Positions 15,316-26,067 of a stretch of 64,000 nucleotides of DNA are shown here, in pieces (position 1 is the first letter of the stretch; every line of letters starts with the position of its first letter). The DNA comes from Flavobacterium hankyongi (GTDB taxonomy: Bacteria > Bacteroidota > Bacteroidia > Flavobacteriales > Flavobacteriaceae): NCBI RefSeq assembly GCF_036840915.1, contig NZ_CP085725.1:3224001-3288000 (forward strand). The letters run 5' to 3'. A program made the translations under genes and the position numbers. Under the pieces are notes generated by a model. That model did no database searches, was not told the DNA's origin, and saw only the letters and a list, made by a program, of their open reading frames with translations.

Positions 15316-15623
15316 TTTTATATTCTTTTTTTTGAAGCATGTTGAAAAAATGAGTCTTTTTTGTTTTATATTGGTGTTTTTTTAAGATAAATTTTAGTAA
15401 ATTTATTACCATGTGTAGGATAAATCTGTATCTAGAATACTATTCTCAAACAAACATAATCTCTATTCTATGTTGTAAACTATTAAGTAATTCAGTAGTT
15501 GCAGCTTTTATTGTAAATATAGTTTAATTTTTTTGGTTGTTAAATTTTGAATTTTAAAATGTTTTAAGATAAATATTGAATTATATCAATATATTTGGTG
15601 ATTATTTAATTAATCTTTACTAT
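15316..15623. other. AT-rich intergenic region upstream of the giant T9SS gene
   Basis: About 308 bp, very AT-rich, with no credible gene on either strand. The only element I can support is the -7 box near its right end. Confidence 0.6.
15590..15597 (+). promoter_or_regulatory. -7 promoter box for the giant T9SS gene
   Basis: TATATTTG, exact match to TAnnTTTG, 26 nt upstream of the ATG at 15624. It lies downstream of the in-frame TTG codon at 15576, which therefore is an unlikely start. Confidence 0.4.
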
Positions 15624-18600
15624 ATGGTGAAATTTTACAATTTGAAAAGAAGTACATTGAATTGTACTTCAAATTTTGTAAAGGGACAGGCTAGAGACAA
15701 AAACATAAGTTTTTTTTCTTGGAGAATTTTTGCTATGTTTCTCTTTACAATGTTGTATAGTTTTCAAGGTAATGCGCAAACCACGTATTATTCAAAAGCT
15801 TCTGCAACAGATTTTAATGATATTAATAGCTGGGGTACAGCTACAGATGGAACTGGAGCGGCTCCAGGAGTAATAAGCAATGCTGATAATTTTGTTATTC
15901 AGAATGCTTCAACGATGTCCCTTACAGGGAACGCTGCTGTAAGAAGATTAACAATAACCTCAGGAAGTTTGACAGTTCCATCCAATACACTTACAGTTAG
16001 TATAGCAGCTGCAAACAATACTGTTTTTACAATTAATGGTGGTACGTTAAATTTAAATGGAGGTACTATTGCCGTTAATGGAAATGTAGTAGTTTCAAGC
16101 GGAACTTTTAATCAGTCTGGAGGAGATTTAAGAATTGATCCTAACAGCGGTGTTGCTGGAACAAGTGTGGCTTCAGGAACAGCGTCATTGTTGTTTTCTG
16201 TAGCAACAGGAACTGTTAGTGGTGGGACTATAACAATTGTAGACCCAAATTTTAATGCTTCTGGGAAAGCTGTAGATTATAATGTAACTACAAATAGCTC
16301 GACATGGTCTGTTAATCATACTTTGCAGTTAGGTGACGGAATTAGTACTGATACATCCTCTAATACTTCTGGATTTATTCTAGAAAGTTATACAGGTAGT
16401 GGTAAACTTCTTTACGGAAAACTTAAGATAAGTGGTGGAAATGCTGCAAATCGTTGGACTTCTTTGGGAGCTTGGTCTATTTATGTAGCAGGAAGTGTTA
16501 CTGTAGATGCTGGTTCTGAATTGCGTCTGAATTCTTCATCAACCTCTCCTGTGTTGTCTGGAGATATTGTTAATGACGGTATTCTTACATCTACGGTAAA
16601 TGTAACTTTTGGTGGTACATCTGGAACTGCTACAGTTGTTAATACTAATGCACAAATGGTTTCAGGAACGGGTATTTTTAGAAATTTAACTACAGCGCCT
16701 ACTGCAAACTTTACTAGCATAACTATACAAAATAACAATGTTGCAGGAGTTACTTTTCCGGGAACTACAAATATCGCTTCACAACCTACAAACGCTTTTT
16801 CTATCAGTGGTACTTTAACTTTTACAGCTGGTAAAGTGTTTACTTCAGGAGGGGCAAGTGTTGTTTTAGGAAATGCAACACCTTCTGCTGGAACATTATC
16901 ATATACAGCGGGTGGATTTGCATCTGGAGTAACCTTTGGAAGATGGTTTACTGCTGCTGGAACCGGAACTTCTTTTGCTTCTGGGGCAGACGCTACTAAT
17001 ACTACAAGTCGATTCCCTTTTGTGGATTCTTTCGGACAAGGCCGTTCAGCTTGGATAGAGCGAGTAGCTCCAGTTACCGCTTCGGGTGTTTTAGCAGTAG
17101 TTTATAATAATGTAGCGGGTACTACATCAGGCGTTTACACTGATGGAGGGACTCCTTTAGATATAAAAGCAAACGATTATTGGACAGTTTCTGCATTGTT
17201 AGGAACACCTACCAGCGCTACTTCTTTCAAAATTCAAATGGTGGCTCCAGGAATTTTTTCTGGAACATTAGCAACAGCAAGTACTAGGGTTGTCAGAACA
17301 GATGGTACATTTGTAGGAACGCATGAGGCAGGAACAACAACGCCAGGCGGACACAGAATCGGATTGACTCCGGCGGAATTAACAACCGGATCGTATACGT
17401 TGGCAACAAATAATGCAGACATCCCATTTGCTTCAATCGCTTCAGGAGGCTGGAATGTTAATACAACATGGAATAAGGGAGTTGTACCTACTTGTACAGA
17501 TGTGGTAACAATATCAGCGGGAACAACTGTAACGTCAAACTCTGCTGCAAATGTTGCGCGAAATGTTACCATTAGTAGTGGAGGGACTTTAATATCGGCT
17601 TCAGGAGACCTTGTTATAGGATGTACTTTAAATAACAATTTCCTGACCAATAACGGAACTCTTACGGTTTCGGGCGGAACGTTAACAATTAATGGTAACC
17701 TGATGAATAATGCTGGTTCAACGTTTAACCAATCAGGGGGTGATATTTTTGTTGACGGTAGTGATGGTGTTACAGCAAATAGTGTGGCAACGGGTACACC
17801 TTTGGTTAGAGTAACTGCTTCGGCTCCGTCTAATTTAAATTGGACTGGAGGTACTTTAACCATTGTAGATCCGCATTTTGGAACTTCTACAACCGATTAT
17901 GCCCTGTCAATTTCTCAAGGTGGTGCTGCAAACGCTGCCGGTGCAGGACATACTGTTAAATTTGGTAACGGTGTTTCGACAACAGCCGGAGGACATACTA
18001 ATGGTTTCTATGCTTATTTGTTCCCAGGATCTTTTTACTATTCTTTAGGGAATATGATTGTTGATGCTTCAACAGGAACTAACAGGGTTGTAAAATACAC
18101 CTCTGCCTTTGGTATTTTGGGAGATTTGACTGTAACAAGTGGTGTTTTTGAGACTAATGCAACATCATCTCTTTATGTGGCTGGTAATATTGTAAATAAC
18201 AGTACAATCAACAATTTAGGGACAATTCAGTTAGCAAGATGGATTAATGCAGCAGCAGCAGCAAGTACAACAGCACAATCTGTTTCTGGTTCTGGAGTTT
18301 TTCAAAACCTATCTACAGCTCCAACAGCTAACCTGACTTCGTTAACTGTTAATAATTCAAACGCAGCAGGTGTGACATTGAATGTTCCATTGTCAGTAAG
18401 TGGTACTTTAACTTTAACACAAGGATTCATCAATACAACAAATGCCAATTTACTTACATTGGGCACGGTGGCTGCAGCAGGAACGCTTACAGGAGGTTCA
18501 GCAACAGCATATGTTAAAGGTCCTTTTGCTAGAACTATTACATCGGGTAACGCTAGTAGCAACTATATCACATACCCAGTTGGTAAATCTGTTTACAATC

Positions 18601-21578
18601 CGGTTTTCTTAGCACCGGCAACTACTAGTGTTTCAGTAATGAAAGCTGAAGCATTTGATACTAATGCGGGAACTACAGATGCATCTATCATGTCATTGTC
18701 ATCAAAAAGATGGGAAGCTCCTATTATGAGCGGAACTGTAACTAATATTAATGTAAGACTTGGAGATGCAGCTATTGTTGCAGCTAATATTCCAGTACAA
18801 GCAATAAGTGCTGCTGGTATTTATTCAAGTTCTTTCGGTTCAGTAGCTACTTATGCTGCGGGTACTCCTAATACAATTACTTCTAACACACCATTAGCTT
18901 CTGGAAGCTATACGGGTTACTTGTCGTATGCTACTTCTAATATATGTTCTGGTACTCCAACACCTGGAGCTACTACAACGACAGCAACTACGATTTGTTT
19001 GGGAGGTTCTGTGACTTTAGGCGTTACAACTATTCCAGCGGGATCTGGCGTAACTTTTCAATGGCAAAGTTCACCTGATGGTATAACATATACAAATATT
19101 CCAACTGCAACAGCTAATACTTATGTGGCTACACCAACAGCTACTACGTACTACCAATGTGTTGTTACTTGTAGTGCAGGTCCTGCATCAGGAACTTCAA
19201 CGCCTGTACAGATTACATTCACAAACAACATAACAGCAACTACACCAGCAACAAGATGTGGGACTGGAACGGCTAATTTAGCCGCAACAGCTTCTTCAGG
19301 AACAATTAATTGGTATGCTGCTGCCAGCGGTGGTTCTCCAGTAGGAACGGGGTCATCTTTTACAACTCCTTCTATAAGTACTAGTACAACGTATTATGCA
19401 GCTGCAGAAGGTTCAACAAATGGTATGGTTCAGTTAGGAACTGGAATAACAACAACAGGGACTACAAATCTTTCGGCATTCAATAATTATAGATCAAGTG
19501 CTAAAGTTCAGTTGATTTATACTGCGAGTGAATTGCAGTCTTTTGGGTTGAGAGCAGGGAATATTACTTCTATTGCTTTTAATGTGTCTTCATTAGGTTC
19601 TTCAGCTAATAACACAAATTATGTTGTGAATATTGGTACTACAGCTTTGGCTACTTTCTCAAACACAACATTTTTAACACCGACATTTACTACTTGTTAT
19701 GGACCTTCAACGTATACACATACGGCTAGCGGTTGGCAAACTATTAATTTTACAACACCTTATAATTGGGATGGGGTTTCAAATTTAGTATTAGAAATTT
19801 CTCATGATGGAATAGATTCTTCAGCAAGTGCTGATACCTATTATACAGCTACAACAGGTAATACCGTTTTGTATTCATATAATAACTCAACACTCAATAA
19901 TACTTTATCTACAAATAGATTTAATGTTCAATTTTCAGGTCAGATTGTTTGTTCATCACCAAGAGTTTCTGTAACAGCTACAGTAAATACGCCTCCTACA
20001 TTAACATTAAGTACATCTACAGTTTCAATTTGTAATGGTACTAGTTCCTCTGCGGTAACATTGACAACAGGAGGTGCAGATTATGATACTTATGTATGGT
20101 CACCAGCTACAAATGTAACAGGAAATTCAACTTCGGGTTGGGTTTTCAATCCAAGTGCAACAACTACTTATACTCTAACAGCATCACAAAGTTCAGGTAG
20201 TTTGTGTTCAACTTCTACAACTGTTACGGTAACGGTTAATCCACTGCCAACAGCAATTAGTATTTCTCCATCTCCTGTTACTGTTTGTGAAGGAGTTGTG
20301 CAAGCTTTGACCTCTTCAGGAGGGGCAAGTGTAGCTTCAGGTTCTAACACAATAGGTGCTGATACGACTGTAACTACTCAAAATGGATTAGAACCAACAG
20401 CATTTAATAACAGATATGAGCATTATTGGATGCAAATGGTATTTACAGCAGCTGAATTGAATGCAGCAGGTGTACAAGCAGGAAATATTAATGGAGTTAA
20501 GTTTAATATTACAACAATAGGGTCTGCTACAAGTGTTTCTGATTATAGAGTTTATATGGGAACTACTGCTTCAAGTACTTTAACAGCTTATGTAACATCA
20601 GGTCTCTCTGAAGTGTTTGCTGCAGCTACTTATTCTCAACAATTGGGAGTTAATACGATTACGTTTAATACACCATATAATTGGGACGGAGTTTCAAATA
20701 TTGTTTTAGATATTAGAAGTACTGGGGCTGATTCTACTAATAATTCAAGTACTTATTATACAGCAACAGCAGATAATAAAACGATTACATCGGTTACATC
20801 TACTACTTTTGCAAGTTCTAATGCTTATGTAGCGTCTAATCCAACTGGTACTTTAAGTTTAAAGAGATTAAACACTACGTTTGATTGGACAAGTAATGTT
20901 GCAAATCCAATTACATGGTCACCAACAACAAATTTATATACTGACGTTTCTGGTACGGTACCTTATACAGGGACTAATGCTTCTACTGTTTATTTTAAAT
21001 CAAATACAGTTGGTACAACTTCGTATACAGCTACAGCAACTTCAGTAAACACATGTACTCAATCTGCTTCAGTTTCAGTAACAGTTACTACGACTGTTGC
21101 GCCTACTGGTACATCTCCGCAAACATTTAATGCTGGTCAAACACTTGCAGATTTAGTGGTTACTGGAAGCAATATTGTATGGTATGCTTCTGCATCTGAA
21201 GCTTCTTCAGCAACTAATCCTTTACCTTCTTCAACTCCTTTGGTAGATAATACTACGTATTATGCAACTCAAACGGTATCAGGTTGTCCAAGTACAGCGA
21301 GTTTAGGAGTTTTAGTTCAAGCTGCTTTAAATACTAATGGTTTCGATTTAACTAAGTTTAAATTTTATCCTAATCCAGTTCATGATGTCTTGAACATAGA
21401 TTACGCTCAAAATATTTCAAAAGTTGAGGTATATAATGCGGTTGGACAATTAGTATCAGTTAGAAGTCAATCTGGAACATCTACAAAAGTAAACATGTCT
21501 GGATTATCAGATGGAGTTTACTTAATTAAGTTGTCTTCAGAAAATACTACTCAAGTTATTAGAGTTGTTAAAAACTAA
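15624..21578 (+). CDS. Giant adhesin-like T9SS-secreted protein
   Basis: 1984 residues from the ATG at 15624. The signal peptide is preceded by a long polar stretch of about 30 residues (hydrophobic core AMFLFTMLYSFQGNAQ). Then come Gly/Thr/Ser-rich beta-helix-like repeats with a duplicated block (FNQSGGDLRIDPNSGVAG and later FNQSGGDIFVDGSDGVTA, each followed by GGT-[IL]-TIVDP-[NH]-F). Next are Ig-like modules (GSGVTFQWQSSPDGITYT; INWYAAASGGSPVGTG), a second duplicated module of about 170 residues sharing TPYNWDGVSN, and PKD-like modules. The end is a type A T9SS sorting domain (FKFYPNPVHDVLNIDY, VYNAVGQLV, VIRVVKN). No catalytic motif is visible. A surface adhesin or gliding-related role is the usual guess for such proteins and is inference. 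Confidence 0.88.
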   Translation: MVKFYNLKRSTLNCTSNFVKGQARDKNISFFSWRIFAMFLFTMLYSFQGNAQTTYYSKASATDFNDINSWGTATDGTGAAPGVISNADNFVIQNASTMSLTGNAAVRRLTITSGSLTVPSNTLTVSIAAANNTVFTINGGTLNLNGGTIAVNGNVVVSSGTFNQSGGDLRIDPNSGVAGTSVASGTASLLFSVATGTVSGGTITIVDPNFNASGKAVDYNVTTNSSTWSVNHTLQLGDGISTDTSSNTSGFILESYTGSGKLLYGKLKISGGNAANRWTSLGAWSIYVAGSVTVDAGSELRLNSSSTSPVLSGDIVNDGILTSTVNVTFGGTSGTATVVNTNAQMVSGTGIFRNLTTAPTANFTSITIQNNNVAGVTFPGTTNIASQPTNAFSISGTLTFTAGKVFTSGGASVVLGNATPSAGTLSYTAGGFASGVTFGRWFTAAGTGTSFASGADATNTTSRFPFVDSFGQGRSAWIERVAPVTASGVLAVVYNNVAGTTSGVYTDGGTPLDIKANDYWTVSALLGTPTSATSFKIQMVAPGIFSGTLATASTRVVRTDGTFVGTHEAGTTTPGGHRIGLTPAELTTGSYTLATNNADIPFASIASGGWNVNTTWNKGVVPTCTDVVTISAGTTVTSNSAANVARNVTISSGGTLISASGDLVIGCTLNNNFLTNNGTLTVSGGTLTINGNLMNNAGSTFNQSGGDIFVDGSDGVTANSVATGTPLVRVTASAPSNLNWTGGTLTIVDPHFGTSTTDYALSISQGGAANAAGAGHTVKFGNGVSTTAGGHTNGFYAYLFPGSFYYSLGNMIVDASTGTNRVVKYTSAFGILGDLTVTSGVFETNATSSLYVAGNIVNNSTINNLGTIQLARWINAAAAASTTAQSVSGSGVFQNLSTAPTANLTSLTVNNSNAAGVTLNVPLSVSGTLTLTQGFINTTNANLLTLGTVAAAGTLTGGSATAYVKGPFARTITSGNASSNYITYPVGKSVYNPVFLAPATTSVSVMKAEAFDTNAGTTDASIMSLSSKRWEAPIMSGTVTNINVRLGDAAIVAANIPVQAISAAGIYSSSFGSVATYAAGTPNTITSNTPLASGSYTGYLSYATSNICSGTPTPGATTTTATTICLGGSVTLGVTTIPAGSGVTFQWQSSPDGITYTNIPTATANTYVATPTATTYYQCVVTCSAGPASGTSTPVQITFTNNITATTPATRCGTGTANLAATASSGTINWYAAASGGSPVGTGSSFTTPSISTSTTYYAAAEGSTNGMVQLGTGITTTGTTNLSAFNNYRSSAKVQLIYTASELQSFGLRAGNITSIAFNVSSLGSSANNTNYVVNIGTTALATFSNTTFLTPTFTTCYGPSTYTHTASGWQTINFTTPYNWDGVSNLVLEISHDGIDSSASADTYYTATTGNTVLYSYNNSTLNNTLSTNRFNVQFSGQIVCSSPRVSVTATVNTPPTLTLSTSTVSICNGTSSSAVTLTTGGADYDTYVWSPATNVTGNSTSGWVFNPSATTTYTLTASQSSGSLCSTSTTVTVTVNPLPTAISISPSPVTVCEGVVQALTSSGGASVASGSNTIGADTTVTTQNGLEPTAFNNRYEHYWMQMVFTAAELNAAGVQAGNINGVKFNITTIGSATSVSDYRVYMGTTASSTLTAYVTSGLSEVFAAATYSQQLGVNTITFNTPYNWDGVSNIVLDIRSTGADSTNNSSTYYTATADNKTITSVTSTTFASSNAYVASNPTGTLSLKRLNTTFDWTSNVANPITWSPTTNLYTDVSGTVPYTGTNASTVYFKSNTVGTTSYTATATSVNTCTQSASVSVTVTTTVAPTGTSPQTFNAGQTLADLVVTGSNIVWYASASEASSATNPLPSSTPLVDNTTYYATQTVSGCPSTASLGVLVQAALNTNGFDLTKFKFYPNPVHDVLNIDYAQNISKVEVYNAVGQLVSVRSQSGTSTKVNMSGLSDGVYLIKLSSENTTQVIRVVKN

Positions 21579-22116: not shown

Positions 22117-22148
22117 CAAAGCGGCTTAATTAAGTCGCTTTGTTTTTT
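22117..22148. terminator. Bidirectional terminator between convergent genes
   Basis: AAAGCGGCTTAA (22118-22129) and TTAAGTCGCTTT (22130-22141), one mismatch, then TGTTTTTT. It ends the cystatin-like gene and overlaps the last codons of the SRPBCC gene on the other strand. Confidence 0.7.
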
Positions 22149-22590
22149 CTGTCTTGCTTTTTATTATTGAATTTCTTTTTTCAATCAAATGTCTAAGGTA
22201 CTTTTTTAAAAATAGCATGTTGAAAATTTTGCCTAAAATCCCACCAGGAGTTTTGTAAATTATTTCATCAACCATCAATGTGCAATTGTATTTACTTATA
22301 AATCGATGATGATGAACAAATGATTTGAAAGAACCGGTTATCATTTCATCAGTAAATGATTTGTAGAATGTCATCTCAGTTATTTTGCTTTGATGTATAA
22401 AATAAAATCCAAAATGTTTTCCTTTGAAAGTTACAGTTTCTCCTAATTCAATTAATCCTGATGCTTTACCTGAAATTACTTTTTCTTCAGTGTGTTTCAT
22501 GCTTGATTGATGTAAATCAATATTTCTGGATAAATCGAAAACAATTTCTTTTTCTGAATTGATTACAGTTTCAAAATATAGCTTAGTCAT
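22126..22590 (-). CDS. SRPBCC-family (START-like) protein
   Basis: 154 residues from the ATG at 22590. The order of elements, FETVINSEKEIVFDLSRNIDLHQSS, then GLIELGETVTFKGKHFG, MTFYKSF, FKSFVHHHRF and a C-terminal long helix (LKKYLRHLIEKRNS), is that of SRPBCC helix-grip proteins that bind hydrophobic ligands. No signal peptide. It is the last gene of the minus-strand operon; its start overlaps the stop of the TIGR01777 gene by 8 nt (ATGACTAA), so translation is coupled. A longer frame upstream (to 22647) would overlap the previous gene further and is not preferred. TIGR01777 and SRPBCC modules are found as one fused protein in some bacteria, which supports a joint role; the ligand is unknown. 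Confidence 0.8.
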   Translation of the reverse strand: MTKLYFETVINSEKEIVFDLSRNIDLHQSSMKHTEEKVISGKASGLIELGETVTFKGKHFGFYFIHQSKITEMTFYKSFTDEMITGSFKSFVHHHRFISKYNCTLMVDEIIYKTPGGILGKIFNMLFLKKYLRHLIEKRNSIIKSKTEKTKRLN

Positions 22591-23494
22591 TTTGAAGTAA
22601 TTTTTTGAAAGAAGCTTCAAGGTTTGTATAGTTAAAAGTAAATCCATTTTCTTGTAAGCGTTTCGGAATTACATTTCGGCTTTTTAATACGAGTTCGGTT
22701 TCTGTTCCTATGAATTTGGCACCAAATTCCAATAAGCGTTTGCCAACAGGAGTTCCAAAGGGTATTTTTATTGTTTTACGTAACGCTTTCATAAAATCTT
22801 TGTTTTGGATTGGGGTAGGAGATACAATATTAACAACTCCGGTGATTTCTTTTTCAATGACAAACGCCAATGCTCTGGCAAAATCTTCTTCATGAATCCA
22901 ACTCACAAACTGTTTTCCATTGCCTTGTTTACCGCCAAATCCCATTTGGGTTAAGTTTTTGAGCGGCAGAAAAGCACCGCCTTGTTTACCTAAGACTATT
23001 GAAGTACGTAAGGCAGTTTTTTTTGTATTGGGTGTCTCGGTTTTGAAGAATGCTTTTTCCCAGCTTTGCGCTACGTTCATAGAAAAATCATTGCCTATTT
23101 CACCAGTAAATTCATCCATTTGTTTGTCTTCAGAATGACGATATATAGTAGCAGTTGATGAATTTAACCAGTGTTTGGGAGGATTTTTACATTGTAATAC
23201 GGCTTTGTTCAGGATTTTAGTACTATTTATTCTCGATAAAAGAATTTCTCTCTTGTTGGCTTTGTTATAGCGACAATCTACAGATTTACCTGCTAGATTT
23301 ATCAATATATCTGTATCTTCAAGAACTGCCTCCCAGCCAGTCATGGTTTTAGCATTCCAATGTAAATAACGGATGTTTTCTTCCTGTTTTTCTTTATCGC
23401 GAGTAAGTACTACTATTTCTTCGCAGTTTTTTTTGAAATAATTTACCAATACTTGTCCTAAGAAACCTGTACCTGCGGCTATAACTATTTTCAT
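22583..23494 (-). CDS. TIGR01777-family NAD(P)-dependent epimerase-like protein
   Basis: 303 residues from the ATG at 23494 (MKIVIAAGTGFLGQ), an extended short-chain dehydrogenase fold. The Rossmann motif is GTGFLG at residues 8-13. Other family landmarks are INLAGKSVDCRYN, LNSSTATIYRHS, RTSIVLGKQGGAFLPL and SWIHEEDFARAL; the end LKSRNVIPKRLQENGFTFNY is the DUF1731 tail of this family. The usual catalytic Tyr-x-x-x-Lys is replaced, as in many members, so the reaction is not known. Its ATG overlaps the stop of the DUF393 gene (ATGA). A longer frame to 23545 exists but overlaps the preceding gene and lacks family similarity. Confidence 0.88.
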   Translation of the reverse strand: MKIVIAAGTGFLGQVLVNYFKKNCEEIVVLTRDKEKQEENIRYLHWNAKTMTGWEAVLEDTDILINLAGKSVDCRYNKANKREILLSRINSTKILNKAVLQCKNPPKHWLNSSTATIYRHSEDKQMDEFTGEIGNDFSMNVAQSWEKAFFKTETPNTKKTALRTSIVLGKQGGAFLPLKNLTQMGFGGKQGNGKQFVSWIHEEDFARALAFVIEKEITGVVNIVSPTPIQNKDFMKALRKTIKIPFGTPVGKRLLEFGAKFIGTETELVLKSRNVIPKRLQENGFTFNYTNLEASFKKLLQND

Positions 23495-24318
23495 AATGTA
23501 AAGTTTAAGATTAAATAAAGTGCTATTATGTGGTAAAGTACCCAAGTGAAGCTTAAATATTTGGGAAGTTTTAGAATTTCAATTCTGCGAATGTGTTCTA
23601 AAAAGATTAATAAAACAGTCACAAAAAACCAAGCAAGTGCAACTCTTGCTGTAATATCAGTAAATTGATTTATTACTAACAAAGGTGTTAGTAACAAGCA
23701 ACCGTATAGTGAAACAGTCATTAAATTACCTAAATAATTTATAATTGTTTTCAAATCTTTGTTGAATAGGAAACAATATTGAAAAACAATTTGTCCGCTT
23801 GCCATTGCTAATTCTCTTGTGTAATTGCTTTTTGGGATATAAGGAAGTATTGCTGAACATTTAAAAAGTACTATTGTAGTGATACAAATAGAAAAAAGGA
23901 TATATAGAATTCTATATTTTAAATTGAATGTTGGTTCACATTTTAATTTTGTTTCTACTTTTTTTGAATTTGGAATAATTACTTTTCGGTTGTAAGAAAT
24001 GAAAGAGTAAAGTTTTTTTAGTAAATAATTTACAGGAGGTATTTTTCCTATTTTTTCTATGATTGGAAATGAAGTTCCTATGATTTTTAGCAAACTATCT
24101 ATTCCGTAAAGAACTGTTTTGTTGCTGTGATCAACTAAAGCTATTTCGTTGGCAGCTTTTTCTATATTTATAAACTCTGCTTCCTTTTCACAGATTTGAT
24201 TATAAGGTTTTCTGCCATTTTCATCAAGCATTCCTGTTTTTATGAATGCAGATGTGTATGCTTGGCAAAGTGGGCAATCTTCATCGTAAAGTATCGTCTG
24301 ATTTTGTAGTGTTTTCAT
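23491..24318 (-). CDS. DUF393 (DCC-family) thiol-disulfide oxidoreductase-like protein with membrane domain
   Basis: 275 residues. The N-terminal 100 residues carry the DxxCxxC motif of the DCC/DUF393 family (Asp12/Asp14 and Cys15-x-x-Cys18 in LYDEDCPLCQAY) in a thioredoxin-like setting. From about residue 130 the protein becomes membrane-embedded with four or five hydrophobic helices. Family members are thought to be thiol-disulfide oxidoreductases, but no substrate is known. The fusion to a membrane domain suggests work at the inner membrane. It overlaps its neighbours by 4 nt at both ends (ATGA), the mark of a tightly coupled operon. Confidence 0.8.
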   Translation of the reverse strand: MKTLQNQTILYDEDCPLCQAYTSAFIKTGMLDENGRKPYNQICEKEAEFINIEKAANEIALVDHSNKTVLYGIDSLLKIIGTSFPIIEKIGKIPPVNYLLKKLYSFISYNRKVIIPNSKKVETKLKCEPTFNLKYRILYILFSICITTIVLFKCSAILPYIPKSNYTRELAMASGQIVFQYCFLFNKDLKTIINYLGNLMTVSLYGCLLLTPLLVINQFTDITARVALAWFFVTVLLIFLEHIRRIEILKLPKYLSFTWVLYHIIALYLILNFTL

Positions 24319-25028
24319 AAGATAATTTTTCGTTTGTTTTCAACATTGATTTCAGAACCTTCTGCCAGAAAAACTGATGTAGGTTTTAAGTTATTCAGAA
24401 AAGCGAAATCTTTTCCGTAGGTGTTTTCAAAATCTACCTCAATTTCATAATTTTTGATGTAGTATTGTTTCCATTTTGGGTGTTTGACCTCATACTCGTA
24501 CGTTTCGTCTTTGCTGTACTTTGTATACCCAAAATAATGCTCCATTATGAATTCGGCTTCGCTTCCTTCTTCTATCGGACTAATAAAATCATAAGCATTA
24601 ACACTTATATAGTTTGTTTTCTTCTGATTTTGCCAACTGTAACTTACTTTCAATACCTCTGCTTCAAGTTTATTTTGGTGCTGCATGAAAAGTGTTCTGT
24701 AGTTTTCTTTGTAGAAAGTATTGGCTACAAAAGTTATCATGCTTTTGGGAACAATTTCCTGAATGAATACTACACCTCTTTTCCATTGCCCGTTTTCAAA
24801 TCGTTTAACATAAAAGCGCAGATTGACTTCTTCAAAATCGGTATGCTTTGGTATTCTAAAGCCCAATACTCTGGTATCTCTGAAAAGAAAACCTACCAAA
24901 CTCACATAACATTTGCCATTCCATATATCGAACTCTGTTCCAGCTGGAATGTACTTTTTTAAATTTTCAGGATTGATGACATAGTTTGCCATAATCAAGT
25001 TTTTCCATTGTGCGGTTAAAAAGCTCAT
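24315..25028 (-). CDS. DUF2071 (YqjF-like) protein
   Basis: 237 residues, matching the DUF2071 family at the N-terminus: FLTAQWKNLIMANYVINPENLKKYIP, then GTEFDIWNGKCYVSLVGFLFRDTRVLGF and VNLRFYVKRFENGQWKRGVVFIQEIVPK. It is soluble and has no signal peptide. No reaction is known. Members are frequently found beside DUF393, TIGR01777 and SRPBCC genes, as here, so they probably work in one pathway. It starts 4 nt after the small membrane protein gene and overlaps the DUF393 start by 4 nt. Confidence 0.85.
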   Translation of the reverse strand: MSFLTAQWKNLIMANYVINPENLKKYIPAGTEFDIWNGKCYVSLVGFLFRDTRVLGFRIPKHTDFEEVNLRFYVKRFENGQWKRGVVFIQEIVPKSMITFVANTFYKENYRTLFMQHQNKLEAEVLKVSYSWQNQKKTNYISVNAYDFISPIEEGSEAEFIMEHYFGYTKYSKDETYEYEVKHPKWKQYYIKNYEIEVDFENTYGKDFAFLNNLKPTSVFLAEGSEINVENKRKIIL

Positions 25029-25032
25029 TTTT

Positions 25033-25356
25033 TTAGTTTTTAAATTCTGTAATAGGTGTTTTATTTTCTTCTTTTAGCTTCCATTTCTGCTTATAGATGA
25101 TGAAGGTTAAGAAGAATATGAGAAAAATTGGAATAGAGAACAGTAGGTTGAATGTGCCGTCCCAGAACAAGAAAAACAGAATCACTAAAGCAAAATAGAT
25201 GTATATCAGCTTATTGCTAGGAAAGAGTATTAAAAAGCATAAAGCAGCAATTACTTGGAAAATTCCTGTTGCAGCTATTCCATATGCTCCAAGAACTAGA
25301 AATAGCAAGGCAATAATATTAATAATTTGAACGACTTTAAACGAAGGTGTTATCAT
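25033..25356 (-). CDS. Small membrane protein, first gene of the operon
   Basis: 107 residues with three or four hydrophobic helices (about 10-35, 37-48, 50-65, 70-87) and a basic cytoplasmic tail (YKQKWKLKEENK). I do not recognise a family. It heads the five-gene minus-strand operon with DUF2071, DUF393, TIGR01777 and SRPBCC genes (4-nt gap to the next). The start at 25356 is 14 nt downstream of the palindrome at 25371-25398, so its expression is probably controlled there. Confidence 0.7.
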   Translation of the reverse strand: MITPSFKVVQIINIIALLFLVLGAYGIAATGIFQVIAALCFLILFPSNKLIYIYFALVILFFLFWDGTFNLLFSIPIFLIFFLTFIIYKQKWKLKEENKTPITEFKN

Positions 25357-25370
25357 AATGTTTGTATTTA

Positions 25371-25398
25371 TTAAACTTTCAGAAAAAAATGAAAGTTT
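25371..25398. promoter_or_regulatory. Operator copy 2 of the GbsR-type regulator (predicted)
   Basis: TTAAACTTTC, spacer AGAAAAAAAT, GAAAGTTT: perfect 8-bp arms (AAACTTTC/GAAAGTTT). It differs from the copy at 26001-26028 at one of 28 bases. It lies between the regulator stop and the operon start, 14 nt before the first start codon. Confidence 0.7.
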
Positions 25399-25411
25399 AA
25401 ATTAAAATTTT

Positions 25412-25915
25412 TTATTTCATGAATTTAATTAAAATTTGAGCCAACCAGTTGTCTTTGTATTCTGTCATTTTATCCAAAACATTATCTGCTTTTAAAACGA
25501 AATCATACAATTTAGTAGTTTGATCTACAAAATGTTTTTCTTCTGAAGAAGATGAGGCATCTATAGAAGATACTTCCTTAAGCACTTTTAATGCAGGTTT
25601 AATTTCTCTTTTACTACGTTCTCTTGAAATTTTTACAGCTAATTCATCTAAATCTTTTTCGGCAGTAAAAAATTCACGACGTTCACCAGCCTTAAATTCT
25701 TTGTAAACAATACCCCAATCCATCAAAGCACGTAAATTCATACTGGCATTACCACGAGAAATTTGTAATTCTTCCATAATGTCTTCCATAGAAACCGCTT
25801 CGCTAGATACCATAAGTAGGGCATGAATTTGAGCCATGGTTTTATTGATGCCCCATTGTGAACCTAAAGCTCCCCAGGTTTGAACGAATTTATTTTTTGC
25901 TTCTTTGAATTTCAT
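25412..25915 (-). CDS. GbsR/MarR-family transcriptional regulator
   Basis: 167 residues from the ATG at 25915 (MKFKEAKNKFVQTWGALGSQWGINKTMAQIHALLM). The winged helix-turn-helix follows: VSMEDIMEELQISRGNASMNLRALMDWGIVYKEFKAGERREFF. The C-terminal helices (residues about 100-167) would form the dimer. This is the GbsR type of MarR-like regulator; family members are dimeric repressors or activators, some responding to choline or glycine betaine, but the signal here is unknown. Two near-identical palindromes, one over its own promoter and one before the next operon, predict that it controls both. An upstream in-frame start at 25951 lies closer to the promoter but lacks family similarity. Confidence 0.88.
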   Translation of the reverse strand: MKFKEAKNKFVQTWGALGSQWGINKTMAQIHALLMVSSEAVSMEDIMEELQISRGNASMNLRALMDWGIVYKEFKAGERREFFTAEKDLDELAVKISRERSKREIKPALKVLKEVSSIDASSSSEEKHFVDQTTKLYDFVLKADNVLDKMTEYKDNWLAQILIKFMK

Positions 25916-25981
25916 TTGCCGTTTATATTGTTTTTTAATGGTCAAATGCAAATCGCATTAGAAATGCTCATTGTCATAAGG

Positions 25982-26012
25982 CAAATGTATAACAAAGTTT
26001 TTAAACTTTCAA
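25982..26012 (-). promoter_or_regulatory. Promoter of the GbsR-type regulator gene
   Basis: On the minus strand: TTG (26012-26010), 20-bp spacer, TACATTTG (25989-25982), an exact TAnnTTTG. The TTG lies inside the palindrome at 26001-26028, so a bound dimer would block the -33 contact. This fits negative autoregulation. Confidence 0.65.
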
Positions 26013-26028
26013 AAAAAAATGAAAGTTT
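26001..26028. promoter_or_regulatory. Operator copy 1 of the GbsR-type regulator (predicted)
   Basis: TTAAACTTTC, spacer AAAAAAAAAT, GAAAGTTT. Perfect 8-bp arms separated by 10 bp, so the centres of the arms are about two helical turns apart, as for a dimeric winged-helix protein. Identical to the copy at 25371-25398 except for one spacer base. Confidence 0.7.
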
Positions 26029-26033
26029 GTTTA

Positions 26034-26067
26034 AAAAGAAAAGCCGAAGTATCAAACTTCGGCTTCT
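26034..26067 (-). terminator. Terminator of the M3 peptidase gene
   Basis: AAGCCGAAG (26041-26049) and CTTCGGCTT (26057-26065) form a 9-bp stem; on the minus strand a T-rich tract follows. It lies just after the stop codon of the peptidase and isolates the regulator promoter from it. Confidence 0.8.

Follow-up and report, generated by a model that had tools for sequence, protein, structure and literature searches.

Two near-identical palindromes as predicted operators of a GbsR/MarR-type regulator and its adjacent operon in Flavobacterium

Two near-identical palindromes in the genome of Flavobacterium hankyongi very probably serve the GbsR/MarR-type regulator beside them as operators and constitute its entire regulon, a local one of two sites. 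Repression would work by occlusion at the palindrome preceding the regulator gene (UP) and, with rather less certainty, by roadblock at the one preceding a five-gene operon (DN). The features of the locus, all within the window (the whole 64,000-nucleotide stretch of DNA analysed), are the following:

26039..26067, minus strand: terminator-like hairpin following the M3 peptidase gene that lies upstream, insulating the unit
26003..26028, minus strand: UP operator (predicted), AAACTTTCATTTTTTTTTGAAAGTTT on the gene strand; exact match, core conserved before the regulator
26010..26012, minus strand: -33 TTG of the regulator promoter, within UP; from the sequence and the promoter pattern across loci
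25982..25989, minus strand: -7 element TACATTTG, sigmaA consensus TAnnTTTG; from the sequence and a logo of 90 loci
25412..25915, minus strand: GbsR/MarR-type regulator, 167 aa; profile matches and orthologue alignment
25399..25411, minus strand: AT-rich element just before DN, consensus AAAAAAATTTAATCA; logo of 92 loci
25373..25398, minus strand: DN operator (predicted), AAACTTTCATTTTTTTCTGAAAGTTT on the gene strand; exact match, core conserved
25033..25356, minus strand: operon gene 1, small membrane-type protein, 107 aa; no Pfam family matched
24315..25028, minus strand: operon gene 2, DUF2071 protein; PF09844, E=1.7e-56
23491..24318, minus strand: operon gene 3, DCC1-like thiol-disulfide oxidoreductase family protein; PF04134, E=1.7e-7
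22583..23494, minus strand: operon gene 4, TIGR01777-family SDR oxidoreductase (ORF listed from 23545); TIGR01777, E=3e-81
22126..22590, minus strand: operon gene 5, SRPBCC-like protein (ORF listed from 22647); position conserved
22117..22142, no strand assigned: terminator-like hairpin at the operon end, scored on the plus strand, with a near-symmetric stem

The palindromes, TTAAACTTTCAAAAAAAAATGAAAGTTT at 26001-26028 and TTAAACTTTCAGAAAAAAATGAAAGTTT at 25371-25398, share the 26-bp symmetric unit AAACTTTCA-N8-TGAAAGTTT (26003-26028 and 25373-25398). Inspection of the sequence confirmed what the earlier note had described, namely the pair itself with its positions and identity at 27 of 28 bases, the -33 TTG inside the first palindrome, 20 nt before the -7 element, and the end of the second palindrome 14 nt before the ATG at 25356. 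The exact palindrome occurs twice in the 3.47 Mb genome, both times at the regulator locus, and a reversed control gave no copies. Exact matches were found in 54 of 150 Flavobacterium genomes, nearly all adjoining the regulator, and in a single genome with the reversed control. When three mismatches were allowed, the counts were at background (2 matches in the window vs 2.1 expected; 107 genome-wide vs 134 with the reversed control), so that loose matches carry no meaning as evidence. A chance similarity or a dispersed repeat, a reading to which the chance-level frequency of these three-mismatch matches could lend some colour, has practically no probability left, since exact copies are confined to the locus and two fixed places are strictly conserved; it was rejected on the conservation data.

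The earlier note had made its proposal depend on the palindrome standing before orthologous regulator and operon genes and not at many unrelated sites. Both hold: exact copies lie only at the locus, and genome searches from Flavobacterium to other Bacteroidia found the core retained and the motif co-occurring with the regulator. The relaxed motif AASTTTCA-N8-TGAAASTT (core, TTTCA-N8-TGAAA) was present in 68 of the 68 Flavobacterium genomes encoding the regulator and in 3 of the 82 lacking it, each of these three carrying one motif (Fisher P=1e-39 over the 150 genomes, uncorrected for phylogeny and, the genomes being related, not a true probability). At UP, the exact core was found in 78 of 80 named Flavobacterium loci, 47 of 48 loci of other Flavobacteriales, 15 of 17 of other Bacteroidia orders and 9 of 13 plasmid-borne proteobacterial relatives; dinucleotide shuffles predicted 0.22, 0.18 and 0.00 UP cores for Flavobacterium, other Flavobacteriales and the proteobacterial group, respectively, and at most 0.3 loci per group for either site. 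At DN, the core was retained in 79/80, 42/48 and 9/17 loci of the three Bacteroidia groups and in none of the 13 proteobacterial ones. Seven loci without DN were inspected (L184, L185, L206, L210, L211, L213 and L226), and at each of them the co-directional operon was absent next door, its place being taken by a different or convergent gene.

The link between the encoded protein and the palindromes is one that we infer, which leaves some room for binding by a different, unlinked regulator. This is most improbable, since the motif tracks the presence of the encoded regulator genome by genome and adjoins its orthologues across phyla, and the footprinted site of the GbsR-type repressor CydE has the same core (PMC6096048). 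Moreover, the UP and DN spacers showed 2.24 differences within a locus vs 3.29 between loci (none of 5,000 permutations was as low), a likeness expected if one protein reads both sites. A second GbsR clade of the phylum (L289-L308, 20 members), taken as a negative control, lacks the motif, with three exact UP cores of which only one lies at a promoter-like distance, so the motif is not general among GbsR proteins.

The assignment of the regulator itself to the GbsR/MarR type was upheld. It matches PF12802 MarR_2 above the Pfam cut-off (29.9 bits vs 27), resembles MJ223 (1ku9, the template on which GbsR proteins are modelled) over residues 5-150 with E=2.1e-16, and is up to 44% identical to RefSeq proteins annotated GbsR/MarR. 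By its score it is a family relative and not a CudC equivalog (51.4 bits vs the NCBIfam cut-off of 218), and the adjoining operon contains no glycine betaine or choline genes. Orthologue alignment places its start at a conserved ATG at 25915, while the mechanical ORF begins at 25951. The regulator leader is longer by about 56 nt in the window and in some ten further Flavobacterium loci, where it harbours a conserved mini-ORF (25942-25977, minus strand; MTMSISNAICI* here, MTMSIYAICI* elsewhere) whose ATG occupies the position of the regulator ATG in short-leader species; the genome has no second copy of the sequence. In roughly half of the L079-L158 loci, about 5 nt separate TAnnTTTG from the regulator ATG that follows it, so leaderless regulator mRNAs are predicted there; in F. 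psychrophilum, only 5.5% of mRNAs are leaderless (PMC9723704).

UP coincides with a promoter. The -7 consensus TAnnTTTG is that published for F. psychrophilum (PMC9723704), and a sigmaA promoter of the form TTG-N17-23-TAnnTTTG was found at UP in 100 of 105 loci, with UP covering the -33 TTG; the base preceding TGAAA is T in 50 of 51 UP sites and thereby forms that TTG. UP thus has the layout of negative autoregulation, a predicted operator overlapping the regulator's own promoter, and its position over the -33 element points to occlusion. Judged from these sequence features, the negative autoregulation proposed in the earlier note is supported. Between the -33 and -7 elements, TTTAAAAACTTT (25990-26002; UP logo positions 26-34) is almost invariant in the Flavobacterium loci L079-L158; this conservation exceeds what a promoter spacer needs, and a third half-site may lie there.

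DN is a different kind of site. No sigmaA promoter (TAnnTTTG with a spaced TTG) was found there in any of the 105 loci, the best -7 match nearby having 1-2 mismatches, and no terminator-like hairpin was found between regulator and operon. Control of the operon by the same regulator is supported as had been proposed, but DN is probably not a promoter operator like UP. A roadblock inside one shared regulator-operon transcript is the likeliest mode, and we regard it as rather probable. The base preceding TGAAA is C in 39 of 40 DN sites, a base shared with the CydE site and, without exception, with the eight distinct proteobacterial sites. This CTG half may make DN a stronger site than UP, in which case repression would be tighter for the operon than for the regulator.

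Certain features around DN are, however, more than a pure roadblock needs. TTTAA, 98-100% conserved in the logo and thus on a par with the arms, directly precedes DN; an A/T tract (A7TTT or T7) stops 12-13 nt before the DN core across Flavobacteriales (25399-25411 in the window; L173-L225); and the core lies 19-21 nt from the ATG in 81 of 105 loci. Since a pure roadblock requires neither the near-fixed distance nor TTTAA, the same regulator might instead act at DN by occluding a separate, atypical operon promoter that uses another sigma factor or a weak sigmaA variant. All three features would fit such a promoter, but the missing sigmaA pattern and the imperfect -7 matches tell against it, and we consider it possible, if somewhat doubtful.

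DN might also act at the RNA level, as a hairpin by which the operon leader controls translation or stability, and not as a DNA site. In the window, folding of the DN RNA gives an 11-bp hairpin (-9.7 kcal/mol, z=-4.4) near the start codon. Nevertheless, the same sequence at UP sits at -33 and is hence untranscribed from that promoter. In addition, the ten bases of the DN core remain exact in other Flavobacteriales, where, of the three pairs that come next outside the core, two are usually unpairable (0.36 and 0.18). This reading is very unlikely.

Under the favoured roadblock reading, a regulator dimer would bind TTTCA-N8-TGAAA, and at UP it would cover the -33 TTG and exclude RNA polymerase from the regulator promoter, resulting in negative autoregulation. 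Transcription from this promoter would continue through the regulator into the five-gene operon, where a dimer on DN, just ahead of the first operon gene, would stop the passing polymerase. The operon would then be gated twice and the regulator once, and an inducing signal would release UP and DN together. Whether UP and DN cooperate by looping was considered from their start distances (568-630 bp), which show no obvious helical phasing.

Among relatives the operon varies as a mosaic, with about ten families contributing to it, paired small membrane proteins and in some cases a fatty acid desaturase among them; the desaturase was the only clear Pfam match among the variable genes, other matches being sub-threshold. 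The SRPBCC-like call for gene 5 is based on a weak Polyketide_cyc match of a relative, and a literature search for a light-response link of the operon gave nothing usable. Elsewhere in the window, 15576-21578 (plus strand) encodes a 2000-aa repeat-rich protein whose C-terminal region resembles a type IX secretion sorting domain.

The regulon is most likely local, with two sites. The genome of the window contains 47 exact TTTCA-N8-TGAAA cores, and of about twenty others that were inspected, a single one falls outside ORFs, in an intergenic stretch that has no start close by. That the other cores inspected fall almost entirely within ORFs and that the seven inspected loci without DN also lack the operon argue for locality; a wider regulon was considered and found unsupported. 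With nearly even prospects, one repressor might work in two modes on one transcript, by occlusion at a weaker, TTG-held UP and by roadblock at a stronger, CTG-bearing DN, as a Bacteroidia-wide two-step gate for an uncharacterised membrane/redox operon. For one GbsR clade spanning Bacteroidia, the analysis provides a predicted operator and a local regulon together with a conserved operon as the likely target, which makes the role of Bacteroidetes GbsR-type regulators directly testable, and the two-operator layout offers a clean natural system for occlusion and roadblock by one repressor.

The closest known system is CydE, a GbsR-type repressor of cydAB in Alishewanella sp. WH16-1, whose footprinted site 1, TATTTCAGAAATTTCTGAAAGTTCA, contains the TTTCA-N8-TGAAA core common to UP and DN and precedes the regulator's own operon (PMC6096048). 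The feature by which a CydE-type operator would be recognised, this core before the regulator, is found exactly at UP and, by sequence, again at DN, making both candidate sites of that type. CydE differs in controlling cytochrome bd and in having a second footprinted site of another sequence, GGGATGCGCATATGCAAAT (PMC6096048), and the proteobacterial relatives examined have no DN core copy. The earlier suggestion that the operator sequence had not been described hence stands only in part: the core is already present in CydE site 1, while the Bacteroidia regulon and layout appear to be new. Within the partial literature covered, a text search found TTTCAGAAATTTCTGAAA in no paper besides PMC6096048, and no description of a second operator inside the unit or of the target operon was found. 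On plasmids of rhizobia and other Alphaproteobacteria, several GbsR-type genes (L228, L230-L232, L236 and L237) precede cydDC or cydAB and have TTTCA-N8-TGAAA before them, from which CydE-like control is predicted. In Burkholderia and Cupriavidus (L235 and L240), TATTTCT-N8-AGAAATA or a near copy lies on either side of another GbsR-like protein, a hint that the layout with paired operators has also evolved around a different specificity.

GbsR of Bacillus subtilis belongs to the same protein family, has an A/T-rich inverted repeat as operator and represses by roadblock downstream of the start site, a precedent for DN; its half-sites, however, are 4 bp apart, and it controls gbsAB and opuB (glycine betaine) and senses choline (PMC7396694). 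Its relative OpcR, also of B. subtilis, has its operator over the -35 region as UP lies over -33, a precedent for occlusion at UP, but differs in operator spacing and in its targets, opuB and opuC (PMC7396694). CioR of Chromobacterium violaceum differs in controlling cytochrome bd, and the main text of its paper names no operator motif or inverted repeat (PMC11837568). Finally, a survey of Bacteroidetes GbsR homologues, to which the present regulator presumably belongs, found neither a consistent role nor a consistent gene neighbourhood (PMC6207618), whereas for the Bacteroidia clade a consistent neighbourhood was found here. The core shared with proteobacterial relatives beside cydAB/cydDC suggests that DNA specificity has been kept across phyla; the operator type is not wholly new, and what appears to be new is the Bacteroidia regulon, the two-operator layout and the breadth of its conservation.
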